This document shows positions 2,960 through 36,000 of a stretch of 64,000 nucleotides of DNA, piece by piece. Position 1 is the stretch's first letter. Every line of letters begins with the position of its first letter. The position numbers were made by a program, and so were the translations under genes. The notes under the pieces were generated by a model. That model did no database searches, was not told where the DNA came from, and was given only the letters and a program-made list of their open reading frames with translations. The DNA comes from Marinobacterium mangrovicola. GTDB taxonomy: Bacteria; Pseudomonadota; Gammaproteobacteria; Pseudomonadales; Balneatricaceae. Where the stretch lies: NCBI RefSeq assembly GCF_004339595.1, contig NZ_SMFU01000009.1:310001-374000 (forward strand). Reading direction: 5' to 3'.

Positions 2960-4528
2960 CTATCTCCCGGTTAGACCCTTCCAGGCTGACAACCTCGCCT
3001 TGTAATCAGCCCATGAGACCCCGGTAATATCCAGGAAATCATATTTGAGGTGTTCAATGTTGGCTTTCAAAACCGCGGGGCTGTACTCACCTTCATAGAC
3101 TTCATGGACGTCTCCGTCACCAACCGAGTGGCCAACCAGCGCCTTACGCACTTCACGCGGCACGTCGGTCACATTCTGCAGCTGTTGGATAAAGTTCTTC
3201 CGGAAACTGTGGAAGCAGTACCCTTGTCCCTTCTCATAATCGATGGTCTTGCGCATAGTGTCGCCAAACCACTTGCCTGCATCAAAACCGAACTTGCCTT
3301 TCGCGTTGTCATTACCAAGATCGGGGAATAAGCGTACCTGACCTTCCGCTCGCAGCTCACGCACGTACTCAGGCAGCCCAAATTCAATCAACCTGGAGTG
3401 AACCGGGACGCTGCGATGCGATGACAGTGTTTTGATCTTGACCTTCTTTCCCACGCCCTCATCATCGTCCGGCGTAATGCGGAACATCAACACCCCGTCC
3501 ATTTCGACGACATCCTGAAGGTATAACTGGCAGATTTCCTCCAGCCGTGCACCGGTATACAGCGCGATCAGCGGTATCCAGAACCTGTAGGGCGACATGG
3601 TCCGCATGCGTGTGGGAATCTCACCCCGATACAGATAAGAGCTGATGAGATTTTTAAGATGCTGCCGTTCGAAGGCTTTGTAAGGACTGGTTGCCTGGTT
3701 ATCAGTATCGTTCACATACTTGCGCTTCAAAACGCCCGAAAGGTCTTCTCTGATGAAGTCGGTCGTCTCCACCGCCCATTTCAGCAACTGCCTGACGGCA
3801 CTGATCTTGGTATCGACCGTGCGCGCTGACATGCGCTTCAATCCGTTCTGCTCAGTGACAGTTAGCAGCTCGGGGAATGACATCGTTTTTAGCTTGACGT
3901 TGTGTGCGATCCTGGCCGGCAGTCGGGGAACTGCATCACGAAACTCACGAAGTTTCGCTTTCGTCAGCGCATTGAACGGGGTATCACCCATGAAGTGATT
4001 GAACAGCTCCAACCCCGACCGCAATTCTTTCATCGGCTGTCCCCTCAGTGCCGCACGCTTGTCGCGTATGAAAGCGTCGATCACTTCAGCGGTGGTATGC
4101 ACCTTCGCCTGCTCCGCTCGGTCTCGTCTAAGCAAATCGGCGTTCAATGACGCGAGTTTTGCTGAAGCATGAGGGGTGTCAGCCCACTCCGACGCCCACA
4201 TATGATGAAGCTCCTTGTACATACTGATCTCTTCAGCCGGATCATCACGTTCAATGCGGACCTCATTACCGAATGGATCAGCAGTAGTAATCAAGTGCAC
4301 GTAAAACGCTGCATCACGGTACTCGGACAACTCGAACTCCCCTATCAACCTGTCTAACAGTGCAACGAATCGCCGGCTGGTAAGCCGGGCTCGATGAGCT
4401 TCTTTGGTCTTCAACGACTTGCGTACGTCCCTCCCTATCCCAGGGAGTAACGGCCTTATTTTGGCGGGGATAACATAGCGCACGTAGTAGGTCCCGTGCG
4501 AGTCTCGGTAAGTATGCGGTATCCTCAT
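2960..4528 (-). CDS. Tyrosine recombinase (site-specific integrase), DUF6538 N-terminus
   Basis: 522 residues. The N-terminus (about 1-65, YYVRYVIPAKIRPLLPG) matches the DUF6538 head of many island integrases. A core-binding SAM-like domain follows (about 145-260). The catalytic domain has the expected residues: Arg328 (YTGARLEEI), probable Lys367, His440 and Arg443 (HSFRKNF), His467 (VGHS) and nucleophile Tyr478 or Tyr482 (VHEVYEGEY). All are present, so the enzyme looks functional. It catalyses integration and excision of the element. Its 5' end faces a tRNA-3'-end-like core at 4641-4654, about 113 bp upstream, the usual relation of int to an attachment site. The island extends left beyond the window. 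Confidence 0.93.
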   Translation of the reverse strand: MRIPHTYRDSHGTYYVRYVIPAKIRPLLPGIGRDVRKSLKTKEAHRARLTSRRFVALLDRLIGEFELSEYRDAAFYVHLITTADPFGNEVRIERDDPAEEISMYKELHHMWASEWADTPHASAKLASLNADLLRRDRAEQAKVHTTAEVIDAFIRDKRAALRGQPMKELRSGLELFNHFMGDTPFNALTKAKLREFRDAVPRLPARIAHNVKLKTMSFPELLTVTEQNGLKRMSARTVDTKISAVRQLLKWAVETTDFIREDLSGVLKRKYVNDTDNQATSPYKAFERQHLKNLISSYLYRGEIPTRMRTMSPYRFWIPLIALYTGARLEEICQLYLQDVVEMDGVLMFRITPDDDEGVGKKVKIKTLSSHRSVPVHSRLIEFGLPEYVRELRAEGQVRLFPDLGNDNAKGKFGFDAGKWFGDTMRKTIDYEKGQGYCFHSFRKNFIQQLQNVTDVPREVRKALVGHSVGDGDVHEVYEGEYSPAVLKANIEHLKYDFLDITGVSWADYKARLSAWKGLTGR

Positions 4529-4562: not shown

Positions 4563-4640
4563 TAGCGACTACCTAAGTGTCTGATTATAGGCCTGTAAGC
4601 GCCGTAGCGGGCCTCTGAGCGTGTTTAGTACCAGTTCCGA

Positions 4641-4654
4641 CCACCGGCACCACT
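4641..4654. repeat. Putative attachment-site core, copy 1
   Basis: The 14-bp string ccaccggcaccact is repeated exactly at 6914-6927. Bases just upstream here (gttccgacc) resemble a shortened version of those at the other copy (gttcgagaccgcc). Both therefore look like a T-arm plus a CCA-ending acceptor of a tRNA, with the acceptor side best fitting a Leu-type tRNA. The position next to the integrase promoter fits attL/attR. No complete tRNA is visible in the window. Confidence 0.5.
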
Positions 4655-4803
4655 TTAGAAACAATCGCTTACACCATTTCCCAAGTACACCCGAAAAAGC
4701 CCACATTTCACGCCGTGTTCACAAATCGTCCACGCTGACGAAAGTCACCACTTCACGCCGATATTTCGCTCAACGGATTCAACACAGCCGCATCCTGTAA
4801 ATG

Positions 4804-4953
4804 TTACGACGCAAGGTGTGCATAACGCATCGTCATCTGAATCGACTGATGGCCCAGAATCTTTTGCAGAGTCAGCAGGTTTCCGCCGTTCATAATGAAG
4901 TGACTGGCGAACGTATGTCGCAGAACTTGGGTGCACCTATCCAAATCCCGCAG
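4804..4953 (-). pseudogene. Fragment of a second phage-type tyrosine integrase
   Basis: On the reverse strand, 49 codons before a TAA (4804-4806) encode the conserved C-terminal core of a phage integrase. It reads TQVLRHTFASHFIMNGGN, then LTLQKILGHQS and IQMTMRYAHLAS, so the H-x-x-R box and the LGH motif are present. An in-frame stop lies immediately upstream (4954-4956). No N-terminal domain or Arg I is present, and the reading stops before the catalytic tyrosine region. It is unrelated in sequence to the intact integrase at 2960-4528. It marks an older integration next to the 4641 core, so the site appears to have been used more than once. Confidence 0.85.
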
Positions 4954-5219
4954 TTACCTGCAACAGTCCCCTTTGTGTCAGCGTGTTCTGCGGTATCAAT
5001 CCTGACCGACCCTTGAGTGCGCCTAAGCCCAGGCCCGTGCCTACAATCGGGACACTCAGAAAACAGTGTGGTTGCTATTGCTACACGGTAGCGAAGTGCT
5101 GGGGCAATTTTGCGTGTGCACTGTTCGCACACTGTTTTGGCGTTTTGAAAATTTTGCAGACTCTCCCTGAATTCTTTCCTGCCATTTTTACATTATAGAT
5201 TGATTGTTTTCTTAACTTG

Positions 5220-5233
5220 TTGATTTTTATCAC
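5220..5233. promoter_or_regulatory. Near-consensus FNR/ANR-like box upstream of the DUF883 gene
   Basis: The string ttgatttttatcac matches TTGAT-N4-ATCAA at all but the last base. It lies about 90 bp upstream of the DUF883 start, in AT-rich DNA suited to a promoter. A chance match in AT-rich sequence is possible. Confidence 0.3.
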
Positions 5234-5323
5234 TTTTAATTTCTGGCATGTCTCGTGCTTTGTCTAAGTGACGCACACAGGTTGTGCATTTAGCTCAACA
5301 GATGGATAACTGGAGAGATCAAC

Positions 5324-5644
5324 ATGGCTAACGCATCAACGACCAATAGCACCGCTAACAAAGCGGCTAGTAAAGCCCATGAGCAGACCGATAAGGTGGC
5401 TGAACGCGCTCACGCAGCGGTCGACGGCGCGGCTGCTGTGGCCGGGCAGGGCGAAGAGAAGCTGGAACAGGTCAGTGAAGAGATGAAAGCCTCCGCCGCG
5501 GCGATGGCTCAGAGCGCGCGCGAGCGCTCCGAAAAAGTCAGCGGCGCGGTTTGTGACTATGCCAAAGAGCACCCGTTGAAAACGGTAGGCTTTGCTTTCC
5601 TCGCAGGCGCCGTGGTCGCTTCCCTGTTTAACAGCCGCCGCTGA
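5324..5644 (+). CDS. DUF883 (ElaB/YqjD-type) inner-membrane, ribosome-associated protein
   Basis: 106 residues: a long Ala/Glu/Lys-rich amphipathic helix (about 10-78), then a single C-terminal membrane segment ending in Arg residues (EHPLKTVGFAFLAGAV). This is the hallmark of the ElaB/YqjD/YgaM family. E. coli members are tail-anchored and bind 70S/100S ribosomes in stationary phase. A clear GGAGA lies 7 nt before the ATG. It starts a three-gene unit with YqjE- and YqjK-like genes, the same order as the E. coli yqjD-yqjE-yqjK locus. A stress or stationary-phase role is inferred from the family. Confidence 0.85.
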   Translation: MANASTTNSTANKAASKAHEQTDKVAERAHAAVDGAAAVAGQGEEKLEQVSEEMKASAAAMAQSARERSEKVSGAVCDYAKEHPLKTVGFAFLAGAVVASLFNSRR

Positions 5645-5663
5645 TCTTCAGGTGGTGCTTAGG

Positions 5664-6092
5664 ATGTCAGAACAGAGCCGTTCAGCATCAGCAGACACCT
5701 CCGCGCCCGACAGCGAAGCGCCTGATAGTAGCGCTTCGCTGTCGGGCATCAGCGAGCTGATGCGTGGTTATGTCGCCTGGCTTTCACAGGTCGCCGGGGT
5801 CGCTGAGACCGAAGCACGCCTGATTATGTTGCGGGCGGCACGGGTGTTGACGCTGACCATCGTGCTGGCGGTGATGCTGGTGTCCGGCTGGTTGGCGCTG
5901 ATGGCAACGCTGGTGGTGCTGACCTGGCAGCTGGGTATCCCGCTGCCGCTGACTCTGCTGGGGTTGGCACTGATCTGTTTTGCCGCGGTCTGGGGGTTGC
6001 GCTGGCTGCTGGTTCGCGAGTTGCGAAAACTCAATTTTAACCAGACCCGCGCGCTGATCTTCTCTAATCCTGAGGCTGATAGCCATGAGTGA
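5664..6092 (+). CDS. YqjE-like (phage holin superfamily III / DUF1469) membrane protein
   Basis: 142 residues from the ATG at 5664, preceded by an AGG. A longer frame from 5592 would overlap the previous gene and add an unlikely N-terminus. After a Ser/Asp/Ala-rich head and an amphipathic helix there are two strong membrane segments (about 64-88 and 91-114), with a basic cytoplasmic end. This is the YqjE topology. It lies between a DUF883 gene and a YqjK-like gene, overlapping the latter by 8 bp, so the products are probably made together and may form one inner-membrane complex. Exact function of the family is unknown. Confidence 0.8.
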   Translation: MSEQSRSASADTSAPDSEAPDSSASLSGISELMRGYVAWLSQVAGVAETEARLIMLRAARVLTLTIVLAVMLVSGWLALMATLVVLTWQLGIPLPLTLLGLALICFAAVWGLRWLLVRELRKLNFNQTRALIFSNPEADSHE

Positions 6093-6462
6093 GATTCGCC
6101 ATCTGCAAATGCAGCTCGATATTCAGACCCGTCTTGCAAGGGTCGAGCGCTTAACGCTCAGGCAGGAGCGCCGGCGTTACTGGCAGCACTTGACTCGCTC
6201 AATGATTAAACCCTCCTCCCTGGCCACTTCGGCATTGCTGGGGTTCCTCTCGCAGCGTACCTCCTCAAGCGGCGGAAGTACGCCTGCGCGCCAGCGCAGT
6301 GTGTTGATTTCGCTACTTTCCAGTGTGACTTTTTCACTCCTGCGACAAAAGCTTCAGGGATGGTTGGAAAACCACCTGGACGCGTTGCAATTACATGGTT
6401 CTGAAACAACAAAAGATGAACGTGAGGCTGGGGAGCCGGTCTCGAATACGCCGCTTGAGTAA
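6085..6462 (+). CDS. YqjK-like small protein
   Basis: 125 residues. The N-terminus is rich in Arg, Gln and Leu and probably coiled (about 1-35). A weakly hydrophobic patch (about 73-88) and an acidic, Thr/Glu-rich tail follow. Sequence identity to E. coli YqjK is not obvious by eye; the call rests mainly on position as the third gene after DUF883 and YqjE. The start overlaps the YqjE-like stop by 8 bp, implying coupling. No intrinsic terminator follows; the GGA-hairpin RNA region begins within about 15 bp of the stop. Confidence 0.6.
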   Translation: MSEIRHLQMQLDIQTRLARVERLTLRQERRRYWQHLTRSMIKPSSLATSALLGFLSQRTSSSGGSTPARQRSVLISLLSSVTFSLLRQKLQGWLENHLDALQLHGSETTKDEREAGEPVSNTPLE

Positions 6463-6473
6463 ATGTGCTCAAG

Positions 6474-6900
6474 CTTGTCTCCAGCGAGACGGATGAAGAA
6501 TGTTATCCGTGGCACGGCAGGACGCCGCAAGGAAGCAGCACAGCGAAGAAGGCAGCAGGATGCTGTGAAGGATTGCAGAGCCCGGAGGGCTCAGGGAGCG
6601 GTCAGAAGGGCCTTGATTGCAGGGATGGCCCGGCAACGGATCGATCGGCCGTGACAAAGCCGGAGGCTTTGGCAGGGAACGTTAACTCCATTCAGGATGA
6701 GAGCTCTGGGTGAGCGGCGCCTAGGTGGACCTAAGCGCAGAGAGAGTACCGGCAGGATGCCAGGTTCACGGATGAATCGTGACAGGAGTCTGATAAGGAA
6801 GGGACTCACCCGCAAGGAGGCAGGGCACGGAAGCTTTGGCGAAACGTTTAACGGTCTGACAGTACGACGTGCATGTGTGAGCTCCTCTCGCGGACCTGTC
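6474..6900 (+). ncRNA. Candidate CsrB/RsmZ-family regulatory RNA
   Basis: About 20 GGA trinucleotides occur in some 420 nt, many in the apical loops of short perfect stems. Examples are cggc-AGGAC-gccg near 6516-6528, cagc-AGGAT-gctg near 6553-6565, gagccc-GGA-gggctc near 6577-6592, aaagcc-GGA-ggcttt near 6656-6670, aggt-GGA-cct near 6722-6732 and ggc-AGGAT-gcc near 6750-6760. This is the architecture by which CsrB, CsrC, RsmY and RsmZ sequester the translational regulator CsrA/RsmA. Overlapping open frames here have no ribosome site and poor composition. Ends are approximate: no -10/-35, GacA-type site or intrinsic terminator was found. The 3' side runs into a tRNA-end-like repeat, which may have displaced the original terminator. 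Confidence 0.65.
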
Positions 6901-6913
6901 GGTTCGAGACCGC

Positions 6914-6927
6914 CCACCGGCACCACT
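6914..6927. repeat. Putative attachment-site core, copy 2
   Basis: This is an exact copy of ccaccggcaccact from 4641-4654. It is preceded by ggttcgagaccgcc, which resembles a tRNA T-arm with one mismatched stem pair. The upstream 85 bases do not fold into a tRNA and lack a matching 5' acceptor strand. It is therefore not a tRNA gene but possibly an att scar of tandem island insertions. The DNA between this copy and the small gene at 7107 shows nothing else I can name. Confidence 0.45.
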
Positions 6928-7106
6928 GTCTATCCAAATTCTCCGTCCGCGATAACTTTACGCTTTAGCGTACACTCCGTCCCTTACTCTCGCTGAGACA
7001 GGGCCAATACAGCCGCTTTCTTTAAGCTCCATGGTTTACGGACAGCATGCGTTTGCTCGGCCTGGATCTCTTATCAGGCTGGGAATTCGCAGAGAAGGTC
7101 TAACAC

Positions 7107-7283
7107 TCAAAGCGCGTCCTGGTTATCTTCAATAACAAAGATGGTCTTCAATTCATCGCTGTCATTTTCCTCGGTCAGATAGCCGAGTGCGTTCGGATTC
7201 TTAGCCAGCAGAGTCGCCAAGTCTTCCAGCGTCATAGCGAGAACAATAGTAAAGCCGCCGGCGGTACTCACGTAGTAACCCAT
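7107..7283 (-). CDS. Small acidic protein, 58 residues, unknown
   Basis: The reverse-strand frame from ATG at 7281-7283 to TGA at 7107-7109 encodes 58 residues with natural composition. It opens MGYYVSTAGGFTIVLAM, continues with a Leu-rich helix (EDLATLLAKNPNALGYL), and ends in an acidic tail. A GTG two codons upstream is an alternative start, and an in-frame TGA lies about a dozen codons further up. No Shine-Dalgarno sequence is obvious. I do not recognise the family. It is isolated between the att-like repeat and the gene at 7536. It could be a real small protein or the end of a decayed gene. Confidence 0.5.
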   Translation of the reverse strand: MGYYVSTAGGFTIVLAMTLEDLATLLAKNPNALGYLTEENDSDELKTIFVIEDNQDAL

Positions 7284-7535
7284 CACATCAACTGCCTGGA
7301 TATACCAATTACACTGGGGATATCAGCCGAACAGACCTACAGTGCACTTGAAGCCATAATCTCGTTCAAAGGCTAGCCGACAGCACAAATCAAGGGGCGG
7401 AGTTCAAAGATAAAACGGACCTATGGGCACAGTATGCAACTTAAGCGGGTACAACCTGGAAAACCACCTATTATCCGGAAGCACCACTCTCCTTAGATCT
7501 GAGGTGATGCTCAGCCTGAAGCCCTACTACTTACC

Positions 7536-31015: not shown

Positions 31016-33061
31016 TCAATGCTCGAGTATCCGCTCCCGTAGCGCGCTAGCTCTATGCACCCGCGTAGCAACCGCTTCGTAGAGGCGCGCGCGCGAGGGC
31101 AGCACCAGGGTAAAGCAGTCACTGGCGCGGGTAATGCCGGTGTAGATCAGCTCCCGGGTCAGCACCGGGTTGGGGCCCGGCGGCAACACCATGGCGGTGT
31201 GCGCAAACTCGGAGCCCTGGGACTTATGCACCGTCATCGCGAACACCGTTTCCACATTCTGCAATCGGCTCGGCAGCACCCATTTCAACGAACTGTCGGG
31301 CAGCGGAAACACCACTCTCAGCACCTTCCCGCCCTCACCATCTGGCACCGCCAAACAGATGCCGATATCACCGTTCATCAGCCCCAGCGAATAGTCGTTG
31401 CGGGTCAGAATCACCGGTCGTCCCTCATACCAGAGGGTATCAGGCACAATCAGCCCGGCACCAGCCAGGGCCTGTTCGATGGACTCGTTCTGACCTTCAA
31501 CACCCCAAGGGCCCTTGCGCAGGGCGCAGAGGATACGGAACTGGCTGAACGCCTCCAGCACCTCCTTGCCCCAGCGCTCCCAGGCAGGATCGGTCAGCTC
31601 TCCGGCGTTCGGTTTGCTGGCGTGCAGCTGCTCAAGATAAGCACGATACCCGGGCGCACCGCGCCTGCGGCCCAGCACGCCGCCATCCAGCAACAGCGGT
31701 TTAAGCTGGCGCTGCTGATCGCCGCCCGGCTCCAATAGCGCAAGCTCAGCCGAGCCGCCCAGAAGAATCGTCTCCACCGCTGTCGAGTCGCCCTCGTTGA
31801 CCGCCCGCGCCAGCCGCCCAATACCGCTGTCAGCGCCAAACCGGTGGCTGTGCCTGAGCATCACGATCTGCTGCGCCAGCGGCTGCTCTCCAGCTTCCCC
31901 TTCGCGTTGCTGCCAGGAGCCCAGGCCAGGGCATCCTGCGGCAACCGCCCATTCCAACGAGCCTTTGCTGTAACCGCCCTGCTGCGCCTGCTGGCAGAGA
32001 TCCCCGAGCACGGCGCCGGCTTCCACCGACGCCAGCTGGTCCTTGTCACCCAGCAATATCAGCCGCGCCTGTGCTGGCAGTGCCTGCAACAGCGAGTGCA
32101 TCATCTCCAGGTCGATCATCGAGGCTTCATCGACGACCACCAGATCGGCGTGCAGCGGATTACCGGCATGGTGACGGAAGCGGCGGCTATCCGGCCTTGA
32201 GACCAGCAGACGGTGCAGCGTACTCACCTCGGTGGGCACATCCTTGTTCATGCCATCCGGCAGCGAGTTAACCGCACGGCTGATCGACTCGGTCAGTCGC
32301 GCCGCGGCCTTGCCGGTGGGCGCCGCCAGGCGGATTCGCAGGGTTCTTCCCTCATCACGCGCCTGGGTTTGCAGCAGCGCCAGCAATCGCACGACAGTGG
32401 TGGTTTTACCGGTACCTGGGCCGCCGGTGATGATGCCGAAACGGCCCCTTGCGCCGAGGGCGCAGGCCAGACGCTGCCAGTCCATCGTTTCCGGATCGCT
32501 GCCCGGGAACAGCAGATCGAGCTTTGCCGCGAGCCCGGAAGGTGCAGTCTCTCCGGTGAGCAGCAGCCGCTGGCGAATAAACTCAGCCACTGCGATCTCG
32601 TAGTGCCACTGCCGCCGCAGGTAGAGCCTTGAAGGCCTGCCCTGATGCAGCACCAGCGGTGAGTTACCAGCCCCCTGTTGCACCAGCGCCGAACCGCTCA
32701 AGCTGTCGAGCCAGGCGTTTAACGTCAGTCCGCCAAGCAACTCACTGGGCCGGTCCGGCAGCTGTTCGCCATAGGCGCCCTCCGGCGGCAGCGACAACGC
32801 CGCATCGGGGTCGCTCAGCGTGGCATCAAGATCCAGGCAGATGTGGCCACGACCGAGCTGGTGGCTGCAGAACACCGCCGCCAGAATCAGCTCCGCCGGC
32901 GCCGCTCTATCCAGTTCCGCCAGCATCCGCGCCAGCGCCAGGTCCAGGCCGCGAATCCAGCCCTGGCTGTGCCAGCGCTCCAGCACCTCCCAGAGGCGTG
33001 CGCCGCTAAGATCCGCCTCTACCGCAAACAGGTCATCCTGCAGCCCTTCAATCTTATCCAC
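31016..33061 (-). CDS. recD: Exodeoxyribonuclease V alpha chain (RecD helicase)
   Basis: 681 residues from a GTG at 33059-33061 (VDKIEGLQDDLF), which overlaps the recB stop and has GAGGAG upstream. An ATG at 33113-33115 would lengthen it by 18 residues inside recB. Walker A is GGPGTGKTTT, Walker B is in VVDEASMIDLEMM, and the superfamily 1B C-terminal motifs end with TVHKSQGSEF and YTGITRA. RecD is the fast 5'-3' motor of RecBCD, which repairs double-strand breaks and degrades foreign linear DNA. It contains a longer low-complexity insertion near 385-415 than E. coli RecD. Last gene of recC-recB-recD. Confidence 0.95.
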   Translation of the reverse strand: MDKIEGLQDDLFAVEADLSGARLWEVLERWHSQGWIRGLDLALARMLAELDRAAPAELILAAVFCSHQLGRGHICLDLDATLSDPDAALSLPPEGAYGEQLPDRPSELLGGLTLNAWLDSLSGSALVQQGAGNSPLVLHQGRPSRLYLRRQWHYEIAVAEFIRQRLLLTGETAPSGLAAKLDLLFPGSDPETMDWQRLACALGARGRFGIITGGPGTGKTTTVVRLLALLQTQARDEGRTLRIRLAAPTGKAAARLTESISRAVNSLPDGMNKDVPTEVSTLHRLLVSRPDSRRFRHHAGNPLHADLVVVDEASMIDLEMMHSLLQALPAQARLILLGDKDQLASVEAGAVLGDLCQQAQQGGYSKGSLEWAVAAGCPGLGSWQQREGEAGEQPLAQQIVMLRHSHRFGADSGIGRLARAVNEGDSTAVETILLGGSAELALLEPGGDQQRQLKPLLLDGGVLGRRRGAPGYRAYLEQLHASKPNAGELTDPAWERWGKEVLEAFSQFRILCALRKGPWGVEGQNESIEQALAGAGLIVPDTLWYEGRPVILTRNDYSLGLMNGDIGICLAVPDGEGGKVLRVVFPLPDSSLKWVLPSRLQNVETVFAMTVHKSQGSEFAHTAMVLPPGPNPVLTRELIYTGITRASDCFTLVLPSRARLYEAVATRVHRASALRERILEH

Positions 33062-36000
33062 AGGCCTGCTCCTCAGATTCTCTGTTAATGAGCGTTTTTC
33101 CGGCAAAGAGATCATCCAGCTCCAGGATCAGCTCCACCGGCGGGCGATCCACAAAGGCACCGTGGCGCGTGGGTTCCTCGATTCCACGCAGGAAAAGGTA
33201 GAGCGAGCCGCCGACATACTGCTGATAGCCCGCTGCCGGGTCCGCCGCATAATCGGGCAGACGCGATTTCAACAGCCGGTGCAGCGCCAGGGTATAGAGC
33301 ACGTACTGCAGGTCGTAACGCTTGTGCAGTATCGCCTCGCGCATGGCGCTTTCGGTGTAGGCACTGCTATCGGTGCCGAGCCAGTTGGATTTGTAATCCG
33401 CTACCCAATAGCGCCCCTGGTGCTCAAACAGCAGGTCGATAAAGCCCTTGAGCATGCCGTTGAGCTGACCCCACTCCAGTTTCGGTCGCGGCTCTCCGGG
33501 CAGCACCCATTTGCGCACCCGGCGATCCAGCTCACTCACGTCCAACGCGGCGCTGGAGAACCAGAACTCCATCTCTGCCTTGGCGGTTTCCAGCCCGGCC
33601 AGGCTTACACTTTCACCCTCTCCCAGCGGCAGCGGCGTATCCAGCAGACGCACCAGCCAGTCATCGAGCAGCTCGCGCCAGCCCTCCCAGTCGCGTCGCT
33701 GACAGCGCGGTTCCAGGAAACCGGCCCGCAGTGGTTCATCCACAACCACCCGGTCGAAGCCCTCATCGGCGGCCCACTCCAGCATGCCGTGGAGGAAGGT
33801 GCCCGCCGCCGGACCTTTCCAGAAGCGGTGGATATCGGGATTGCCCTCGATCAGCGGCAGGCCCGGCGTTTCATCGCGGGTTTCCAGCACGTTGTCGTCA
33901 TCCGCCGTTTCCGCGGCCTCATTGGCGGCAGGCTGATCCGACTCCTGCATTCCCTTGAGACGGGCGATGGCGGAATAACTGGCGATCCACCAACGCTCGG
34001 TATCGGGCTCGCGGGTCACCCGCTCGGCGGGCCTGAGCTCATCGCGCTCAGCAGCCGCCGGAAGACGTGCGTCCTCTGCGGCCGGCAGCGGTTCCAGCGC
34101 CAGCACTTCTGCAGTGCAAAGCGCGGTAAAGGCGGTTTCGATGCTTCCCTCACTACCTGAAAGCAGCTGCCCCAGTGCGCTTTTGCCCACATCCTTCAGC
34201 TCGGCCAGGCCGATCCAGCAGGCGTGTACCGGGCGGGTCAGCGCCACGTAGAGCAGGCGCAGATCTTCCTGCAGACGCTCCTGGTCCGCCCGTTTCTGCG
34301 CGTCCTTGTCGTCCTTATCCAGTTCGATGGCGGTACCGCCAGCTTCATCGTGATAGAGATAACTGCCGTTGCGCGCACTGACAGGACGGCAATCGCTGAT
34401 AAAGGGCAGAAACACCAGCGGATACTCCAGCCCCTTGGATTTGTGGATGGTGATCACCTGCACCCGATCCGCGTCGCTTTCCAGACGCAGCACCCGCTCT
34501 TCGGCATCGCCCTGACGCTCTACCAGCTGCTCCGCCAGCCAGCGCACCATTGCCAGCTCACCATCAAGCTGCTGGCTGGCCTGCTGCAGAATCTCGCCCA
34601 GGTGCAGCAGGTTAGTCAGTACCCGCTCACCTTCGATGCTTTGCAGCAGCCGCGCCGGCAATTCGAAAGCATCCAGCCAGCGGCGGATCAGCGCCAGCAC
34701 GCCGTGACGGCGCCAGTGATCGCGCAGGCTGCGGAACAGCTCGACCCGCTGTTCCCAGAGCAGCTCGTCGCGGTTGAGTCGCTCCAGCTCCACCAGCGCC
34801 AGTCCCAAGGTCTGACTCGCCAGCGCCTCATGGATCAGTCCCGGCTGTTCCGGCTCTGCGCAGGCCTTGAGCCAGCGCCAAAGATCCTGGGATTCCTGAC
34901 TATCAAACACCGATTCCCGGTCCGACAGGTAAACGCTGCGTACATCGCGCTTCTCCAGTGCCTGGCGGATCAACTGCGCCTCGCTGCCGGTACGCACCAG
35001 GATCGCGATATCACCGGGCCGCAGCGGCTTCAGCTTCGCATCGGGATGCCGGAAGCCAGCCTTGCCCTGCTGGGACAGAGTCAGCAAACGGCAAATCTGG
35101 CTGGCCGTGGTATTGGCCATAGCCGCGCGAAACTCCGGCTTAGTAGCGGCCTCGTCAGCCCCCAGGTGCCAGGCGGTTAACGCCGATACAGCTTCACCGG
35201 ACACCACCAACCGCTCCTTGCGGCCGTTCGCCTCTACCGGCATAAACGGCAGCGGGTTGTCCTCGCCGCTGCCGAACTGGAAGGCCCCGGCGGACTGGCT
35301 GTCTTCCGCTTCTTCAAACAGGGTATTCACCGCCGCCACCATCGACTCGGAGGAGCGGAAGTTGGTGCCCAGCGTATAGAGCGCGCCGGCACAATCGCGG
35401 CGCGCCTTAAGATAGGTGTGGATATCGGCGCCGCGGAAGGCGTAGATCGCCTGCTTGGGATCGCCGATCATCAGCAGCGCACTGCGCTCGGGATCAGCGT
35501 CGGCGTAGATCCGGCGGAAGCTCTGGTACTGCGTCGGGTCCGTATCCTGAAACTCGTCGATCAGCGCCACCGGGTACTGCTGTACGATCTGCCGCGCCAG
35601 CCGCGGGCCTGCATCCTCGTCCGCCAGGGCCCCAGCCAAGCGAGTCAGCAGATCATCAAAGCCCAAGGTCGCTACGCGGCGCTTGTTCTGCTCTACCCGA
35701 GCAGCGACCCAACGGGCCGCATGAACACGTACCGGGTTGAGGTCCGGGCTGGTTTCCAGATGATCCGCCAGCTGCTGCAGCGCATCGAACACCTCATGCT
35801 GCGGCGTGCCATCGGGCTGAAATTTCTTGTTGGTCTTGCTGCGCAGCTTTTCACTGCCAAAGTTCGCCAGCAGCTTGGCATCGCCCTCATCGCCCTGGCT
35901 CCACTCCAGCATGCTCTGGAACTGCTCCGGCAGTTTCTCCGCCTTATAGACCTGTTTGCTCAGCGCGCCCTTTTCCACAGCCGCGAATATCAGGCCTTCT

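Follow-up and report, generated by a model that had tools for sequence, protein, structure and literature searches.

A putative CsrB-like GGA array RNA behind a YqjD-type operon on a decayed tRNA-Leu element of Marinobacterium mangrovicola

The window analysed here is a stretch of 64,000 nucleotides from Marinobacterium mangrovicola (contig NZ_SMFU01000009.1, positions 310,001 to 374,000). Near its left end lies a 2.3 kb remnant in which two att repeats enclose an integrase fragment, a three-gene operon and a putative CsrB-like array RNA. No tRNA gene was called in the window; the intact tRNA-Leu(CAA) gene is located at L029:1391-1477 (C3:300390-300476), about 16 kb upstream of the right att. 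Behind this gene comes an island, roughly 14 kb long, that carries a resolvase, a type ISP restriction-modification gene and an integrase (2960-4528, minus strand; weak recombinase matches) and is separate from the remnant. The island ends at 4636-4654, where 19 bases are identical to the genome's own tRNA end. With the next bases included, the att at 4636-4669 (plus strand) is identical at 34 of 34 positions to the tRNA-Leu junction of a relative, G003. Repeat comparison identifies it as a tRNA-Leu 3′ end with native downstream bases, marking the boundary between the left-hand island and the remnant. On the other side, positions 6891-6927 (plus strand) are a displaced and imperfect tRNA-Leu(CAA) 3′ end, whose 37 bases are 89% identical to L029:1443-1479. 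The repeat resembling a tRNA 3′ end that the original prediction placed on the 3′ side of the array is thus the right att of the remnant.

A 49-residue reading frame at 4807-4953 (minus strand) represents the C-terminal fragment of a decayed tyrosine integrase (Phage_integrase, E 9.9e-12, profile positions 131-169 of 172). The array RNA is the last piece of the remnant before the displaced tRNA end, and its last GGA falls about 60 bases short of that end. An intact tRNA, displaced 3′-end repeats and an integrase, the features of a tRNA-targeted integrative element, are all in place, the remnant's own integrase being a fragment. No match to the first gene of the remnant was found in seven other genomes of the genus, one of which is 87% complete. 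The att layout, the integrase fragment and these seven genus-mates without the first gene mark the predicted array RNA as cargo of a decayed element integrated at tRNA-Leu. Insertion of an island had earlier been raised as one possible cause for loss of the original end of the RNA; the layout instead puts the RNA inside the tRNA-Leu-targeted remnant. Plasmids gave no match to the DNA from 5250 to 6930. The tRNA-Leu(CAA) gene looks like an integration hot spot: it has its own 14 kb island here, and in G003 it carries a different insert with a 361-residue protein that resembles a restriction subunit by eye.

The first gene of the operon (5324-5644, plus strand) encodes a YqjD/ElaB-like protein with a DUF883-type C-terminal glycine zipper. 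Its match to Pfam DUF883_C (E 0.00068, 19.7 bits) is below the cut-off of 27, and it shares 50-58% identity with five similar proteins in the order. The second gene (5664-6092, plus strand) encodes a YqjE-like membrane protein with a weak holin-X match (E 0.041) and 26-34% identity to the second operon gene of other genera. The third (6085-6462, plus strand) is YqjK-like by position only; a stretch of 60 residues is 28% identical to its counterpart in third place in L011, and there is no convincing family match. Genes 2 and 3 stand in the same order as in G031 and in Marinomonas genomes, and the suggested names YqjE-like and YqjK-like rest on gene order and weak similarity. Gene 2 had no match on plasmids and, when searched by itself, none on genome contigs; relatives of DUF883 were not found on viral contigs. 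The leader of the yqjD-like gene (5300-5326, plus strand) contains a possible CsrA site, with one GGA at 5304-5306 and another at 5312-5314 within the Shine-Dalgarno sequence; its predicted fold is unremarkable. In Escherichia coli, CsrA is reported to bind and repress the leaders of yqjC, yqjD and elaB with apparent Kd values of 95, 9 and 20 nM; elaB has a single GGA, which overlaps the Shine-Dalgarno sequence (PMC10746276). The model of those authors is that CsrB/C relieve CsrA repression of yqjC, yqjD and elaB in stationary phase (PMC10746276).

Directly behind the operon, the array spans 6474-6890 (plus strand), coordinates that give the extent of the motifs and are not mapped transcript ends. 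The original prediction of about 20 GGA motifs at 6474-6900 agrees with the count, which is 20 in 6474-6890 (the first at 6491, the last at 6829) and 21 in 6474-6926. Six of the motifs are presented in hairpins, defined as a mismatch-free stem of four or more pairs whose loop includes the whole GGA. These are found on the plus strand at 6515-6527 (loop AGGAC), 6553-6565 (loop GGA), 6578-6592 (six-pair stem, loop GGA), 6655-6671 (seven-pair stem, loop GGA), 6722-6733 (loop TGGA, with extra outer pairs in the fold) and 6751-6761 (loop GGA). Local minimum-energy folds contain five of the six at least partly, the hairpin at 6553-6565 being missing. On the opposite strand, the same interval contains 4 GGA, none of them in a hairpin.

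The hairpins are the stronger signal. Dinucleotide shuffles of 6474-6890 produced a mean of 0.84 hairpins, with six or more in 1 of 2000, and a second run gave a mean of 0.88 and never reached six in 1000. When each GGA was kept intact during shuffling the mean rose to 1.5, and six were reached in 7 of 2000. Under four alternative stem and loop settings the observed number was matched or exceeded in 6, 0, 0 and 3 per 1000 shuffles. The number of GGA motifs by itself is a weaker signal, 20 being reached in 57 of 2000 and 25 of 1000 shuffles. Repeated GGA motifs with several in loops, beyond chance, are what characterizes the class of CsrA/RsmA-sequestering RNAs, and all are found here. The global fold counts against a decoy, its stability not exceeding that of shuffles (z -0.37).

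E. coli csrB has 22 GGA and 7 hairpins under identical counting, and csrC has 14 and 5; A-N-GGA sites number 12 in the array and 7 in E. coli csrB. The titration architecture for CsrA/RsmA that had been claimed for this sequence is therefore supported by motif and hairpin numbers that match E. coli csrB. The genome was scanned on both strands over 2,469,757 of its 4,979,947 bases (120 stretches, L029 and the window). Across these 2.47 Mb, 4 of 96,842 overlapping 400-base windows contained six hairpins, all four at the array locus, which ranks first by hairpins. The two loci ranked next have five hairpins each and overlap reading frames of 300 and 448 residues. Two hairpin clusters in the scanned half looked non-coding and were set aside: the one in L068 falls in the leader of an adhesin-like gene, and the one in L094 inside a 411-residue frame that runs off its stretch. 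The host has one CsrA gene. Taken together, the locus probably makes a CsrA/RsmA-sequestering decoy RNA, with both its transcription and its binding of CsrA inferred, and positions 6474-6890 look able to act in the manner of CsrB.

The form in which this RNA would be made is suggested by its position. The last stop codon of the operon ends at 6462, and 28 bases separate it from the first GGA at 6491. Given this spacing and the lack of a promoter-like site between the two, the array RNA is most likely transcribed with the operon as a long 3′ UTR and possibly processed to an sRNA. CsrA/RsmA-sequestering RNAs generally have a promoter of their own, in many cases with a GacA/UvrY box, and an intrinsic terminator is common among them, though not universal. 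No sigma-70-like promoter was detected on the plus strand of 5200-7500; this negative is weak evidence, since the scan likewise misses the operon's own promoter. The GacA-box pattern had no match at the locus or in any sequence scanned, L188 included, and is uninformative because it found nothing anywhere it was run. The intrinsic terminator expected of many such RNAs was not found after the array, as originally noted: the sole terminator-like site on the plus strand of 5200-7500 is at 6284-6299, inside a reading frame. Both strands of that interval together contain two such sites, against a shuffle mean of 2.2.

The most serious alternative, though one we would not favor, is a free-standing sRNA of the CsrB type, driven by a promoter of its own that is non-consensus or depends on an activator; such an sRNA would still titrate CsrA and would have the operon as a chance neighbor. 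CsrB and CsrC are separate genes, as are the relA-linked RNAs described below for the family, which speaks for this possibility, as does a comparison of 30 PF05957 loci from the order, 21 other loci (20 from Marinomonas, 1 from Motilimonas) and five same-family loci (L011-L015). The best of the 30 reached 3 hairpins and 14 GGA per 400 bases, and the best of the 21 reached 3 hairpins and 13 GGA. Among the five same-family loci L014, from G011, stands out alone, with 21 GGA and 3 hairpins per 400 bases. There, a GGA-rich leader (L014:2516-2720, minus strand; 14 GGA in 205 bases, 9 of the A-N-GGA type, many CAGGGA, no hairpin excess) precedes the gene upstream of a DUF883-YqjE-like pair. A general link between GGA arrays and DUF883 operons was rejected, the array being mostly absent from these 51 further loci and the five same-family loci; most DUF883 operons examined thus have none. 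Against the free-standing form stand the 28 bases between the operon's last stop and the first GGA and the absence of promoter-like sites on the plus strand of 5200-7500. The operon-linked 3′ UTR is somewhat more likely.

A second, unlikely explanation is that recombination at the att removed the 3′ part of what was once a Csr sponge, which is now no longer expressed or stable. The adjoining integrase is a 49-residue fragment, no terminator follows the array, and the last GGA lies some 60 bases short of the displaced tRNA end, all of which would fit such decay. However, the three reading frames of the operon are open and the six perfect stems are intact, whereas decay would erode them. The array RNA is rather more probably functional than not.

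It is very improbable that the GGA hairpins are unrelated to CsrA and belong to a coding or structural purine-rich sequence by chance. In favor are a GGA count that exceeds shuffles by little (57 of 2000 reach it) and the 400 bases at 32751-33150 (minus strand), which are equally GGA-rich with 20 motifs. Against it, that control shows no hairpin excess, its 2 hairpins being equalled or surpassed in 244 of 1000 shuffles, and none of the three reading frames crossing the array locus has a Pfam match with an E-value of 1 or less. The CsrB model had no match at 32650-33250 around the control.

Among the Rfam covariance models, that of CsrB comes closest to the array, which stays below its threshold. 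The original prediction called for a search with the CsrB, RsmY and RsmZ models of Rfam, and the expected affinity to CsrB was recovered in part. CsrB (RF00018) is the top match at the locus (19.0 bits over 6533-6852, E 0.0033 for 601 bases searched, bias term 8.5), well under the gathering threshold of 71 bits that defines membership in the CsrB/RsmB RNA family, and the locus was not significant in a search of the whole genome with this model. PrrB_RsmZ (RF00166) and RsmY (RF00195) do not include the locus among the matches listed; two weaker overlapping hits from the same clan were removed from that list unnamed. The sole RsmZ-like (RF00166) match in the genome, at C1:739638, was dismissed as the end of a 68-residue frame resembling a cold-shock protein. 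No tRNA, tmRNA or other Rfam RNA reached its gathering threshold at the array.

The CsrB threshold says little here, since it is also missed by two Csr-like RNAs from other members of the bacterial family. In a search of 116 genomes of the family, whose tightened filters let weak matches escape, one CsrB match reached E 0.001, an RNA facing relA in G011. A similar RNA occupies the same position beside relA in G020, which belongs to another genus. The pair, from two genera other than that of the host, is located at L188:1543-1703 (minus strand) and L190:1188-1347 (plus strand). The RNAs of G011 and G020 score 26.2 and 18.0 bits with the CsrB model and have 12 and 11 GGA with 5 and 4 GGA hairpins, respectively. 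An RNA beside relA was seen in 2 of 14 family loci inspected (30 loci fetched). By position, motif and architecture we take these to be native Csr RNAs of the family, possibly an undescribed family-level Csr RNA, and their scores suggest that the Csr RNAs of the host lineage fall under the Rfam threshold.

A native relA-side Csr RNA was also sought in Marinobacterium and is absent from the 160 bases that separate relA from the next reading frame in the host genome and from the matching gap in G003; for five other genus-mates (L220, L221, L223-L225) the relA flanks were covered by motif and hairpin counts. The GGA peak of the relA stretches, L219:401-650 with 13 GGA in 250 bases, lies inside an open frame of 215 residues, and their hairpin peak, L222:1027-1276 (minus strand) with 4 hairpins, lies inside one of 445. 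A covariance model built from the two relA-linked RNAs was discarded, its alignment being poor and the locus not separated from chance. Least credible of all is the notion that the array is the relA-linked RNA of the family transferred onto the element: both the array and L188 contain a hairpin of the type GGC-AGGAT-GCC, and the relA-side gap lacks such an RNA in the host and G003, but the two-RNA model, poor in structure, scores the locus at 7.1 bits (E 1.6), below chance places at 8.5 and 8.4.

No convincing sequence relative of the array RNA was found in the genomes, plasmids and phages searched. Among 57 genomes including that of the host, seven others match, at the tRNA end only and not in the array. 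In 390 genomes of the order, with two candidates per genome scored, 12 match and the array is touched only by a 29-base hit in G198, which falls in an apparent rnfC. In 369 genomes of the class, scored in the same way, 3 match and the array is touched only by hits of 37 and 22 bases. Weak relatives may be missed at these two levels, since two candidates were scored per genome. Plasmids and phages gave no match to the array RNA. With no relative found there is no covariation, which counts against a decoy, as does the occurrence of the loose pattern CAGGATG..AGGA..AGGA at 22 places in the host genome and in 8 of 8 genomes of the genus. A repeat with GGA motifs and a period near 50 bases (CAGGATGTACGGTATGCCGCGGGCGCATGGATGCGCAGGAGCGGCG...) is scattered over several places in each of the genus-mates G001, G005 and G006, in part as tandem copies.

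Several described RNAs share features with the array. It belongs to the same length class as E. coli CsrB/CsrC, with a similar number of GGA and a similar number and type of GGA-loop hairpins, and differs from them in scoring 19.0 against 71 on the Rfam model, in lacking a terminator and in its location, downstream of an operon within a mobile remnant. Pseudomonas RsmY and RsmZ carry GGA in loops and linkers. The array shares this arrangement and the proposed target protein with them (RF00195, RF00166), but it has no listed match to their models, which at 121 and 133 positions are only about a third of its length. The E. coli yqjCDEK operon is chromosomal. It has the YqjD-YqjE-YqjK order of the remnant, and the GGA over the Shine-Dalgarno sequence is of the elaB type; the available part of the report does not mention a sponge within the operon (PMC10746276).

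Other examples differ in origin. Csr sRNAs are described as usually lacking sequence conservation, and Pf1, Pf2 and Pf3 of Pseudoalteromonas were found by their repeated GGA (25, 21 and 9), Pf1 and Pf2 having been seen in that genus only (PMC11882849). Unlike the array, these three are chromosomal intergenic genes with promoter, terminator and demonstrated CsrA binding (PMC11882849). Xanthomonas RsmU is an RsmA-binding RNA processed from the 3′ UTR of an mRNA, as may hold for the array; unlike the array it has 3-4 GGA and derives from a comEA-type mRNA, and replacement of its GGA is reported not to have abolished binding (PMC7694677). Alcanivorax CsrR1 is, like the array, a proposed CsrA sponge from the UTR of an mRNA and present in few species; it differs in arising from the hfq 5′ UTR and in having 9 GGA, and is itself a prediction (PMC9788540). 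The plasmid factor RsmQ is a case of a mobile element acting on the Csr/Rsm network of its host, but it is a protein regulator and not an RNA decoy (PMC9928087). A limited search of open-licence papers on Csr decoy RNAs yielded none that names an island-borne CsrB-type RNA. The type of function is thus already known; what seems new is the combination of a CsrB-size decoy on a mobile remnant with a position directly behind an operon of the CsrA-repressed type.

The host offers candidate targets for such a decoy. The csrA leader (L055:5049-5112; C2:165049-165112) is GGA-rich: CAGGATG occurs twice and ACAGGACG once, and AAGGAG stands at the ribosome site, a pattern that suggests autoregulation of csrA. 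At L068:8686-8748 (C1:228686-228748), the leader of a 2179-residue repeat protein, adhesin-like by eye, has three GGA hairpins directly before the start codon. This gene is a likely CsrA target that would link Csr to biofilm in the host, and the two GGA-rich leaders suggest a working Csr network.

In the mechanism we propose, the GGA-loop hairpins and single-stranded A-N-GGA sites of the array RNA would bind many CsrA dimers and free the mRNA targets of CsrA. By analogy with E. coli, CsrA probably represses the operon of the remnant through the GGA in its leader; the decoy would relieve its own operon for this reason. Transcription of the operon would lower free CsrA, so that its own translation would rise first and that of host targets next, with csrA and the adhesin-like gene as candidates. 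What the sequence shows is the enrichment of motifs and hairpins, the strand specificity, the layout and the presence of csrA; co-transcription and de-repression are predicted. Our broader suggestion is tentative and more doubtful than the decoy itself: the element may have carried a self-derepressing cassette, combining a ribosome-hibernation operon of the YqjD type and a CsrA decoy in one transcript, that disarms host CsrA and moves the host toward a stationary-phase, biofilm-type state. The Csr decoy RNAs in the literature examined are chromosomal; the array would be carried by a tRNA-targeted element. If the proposal is true, a mobile element could take over a global post-transcriptional switch by means of RNA, as plasmid RsmQ is reported to do by means of protein (PMC9928087).
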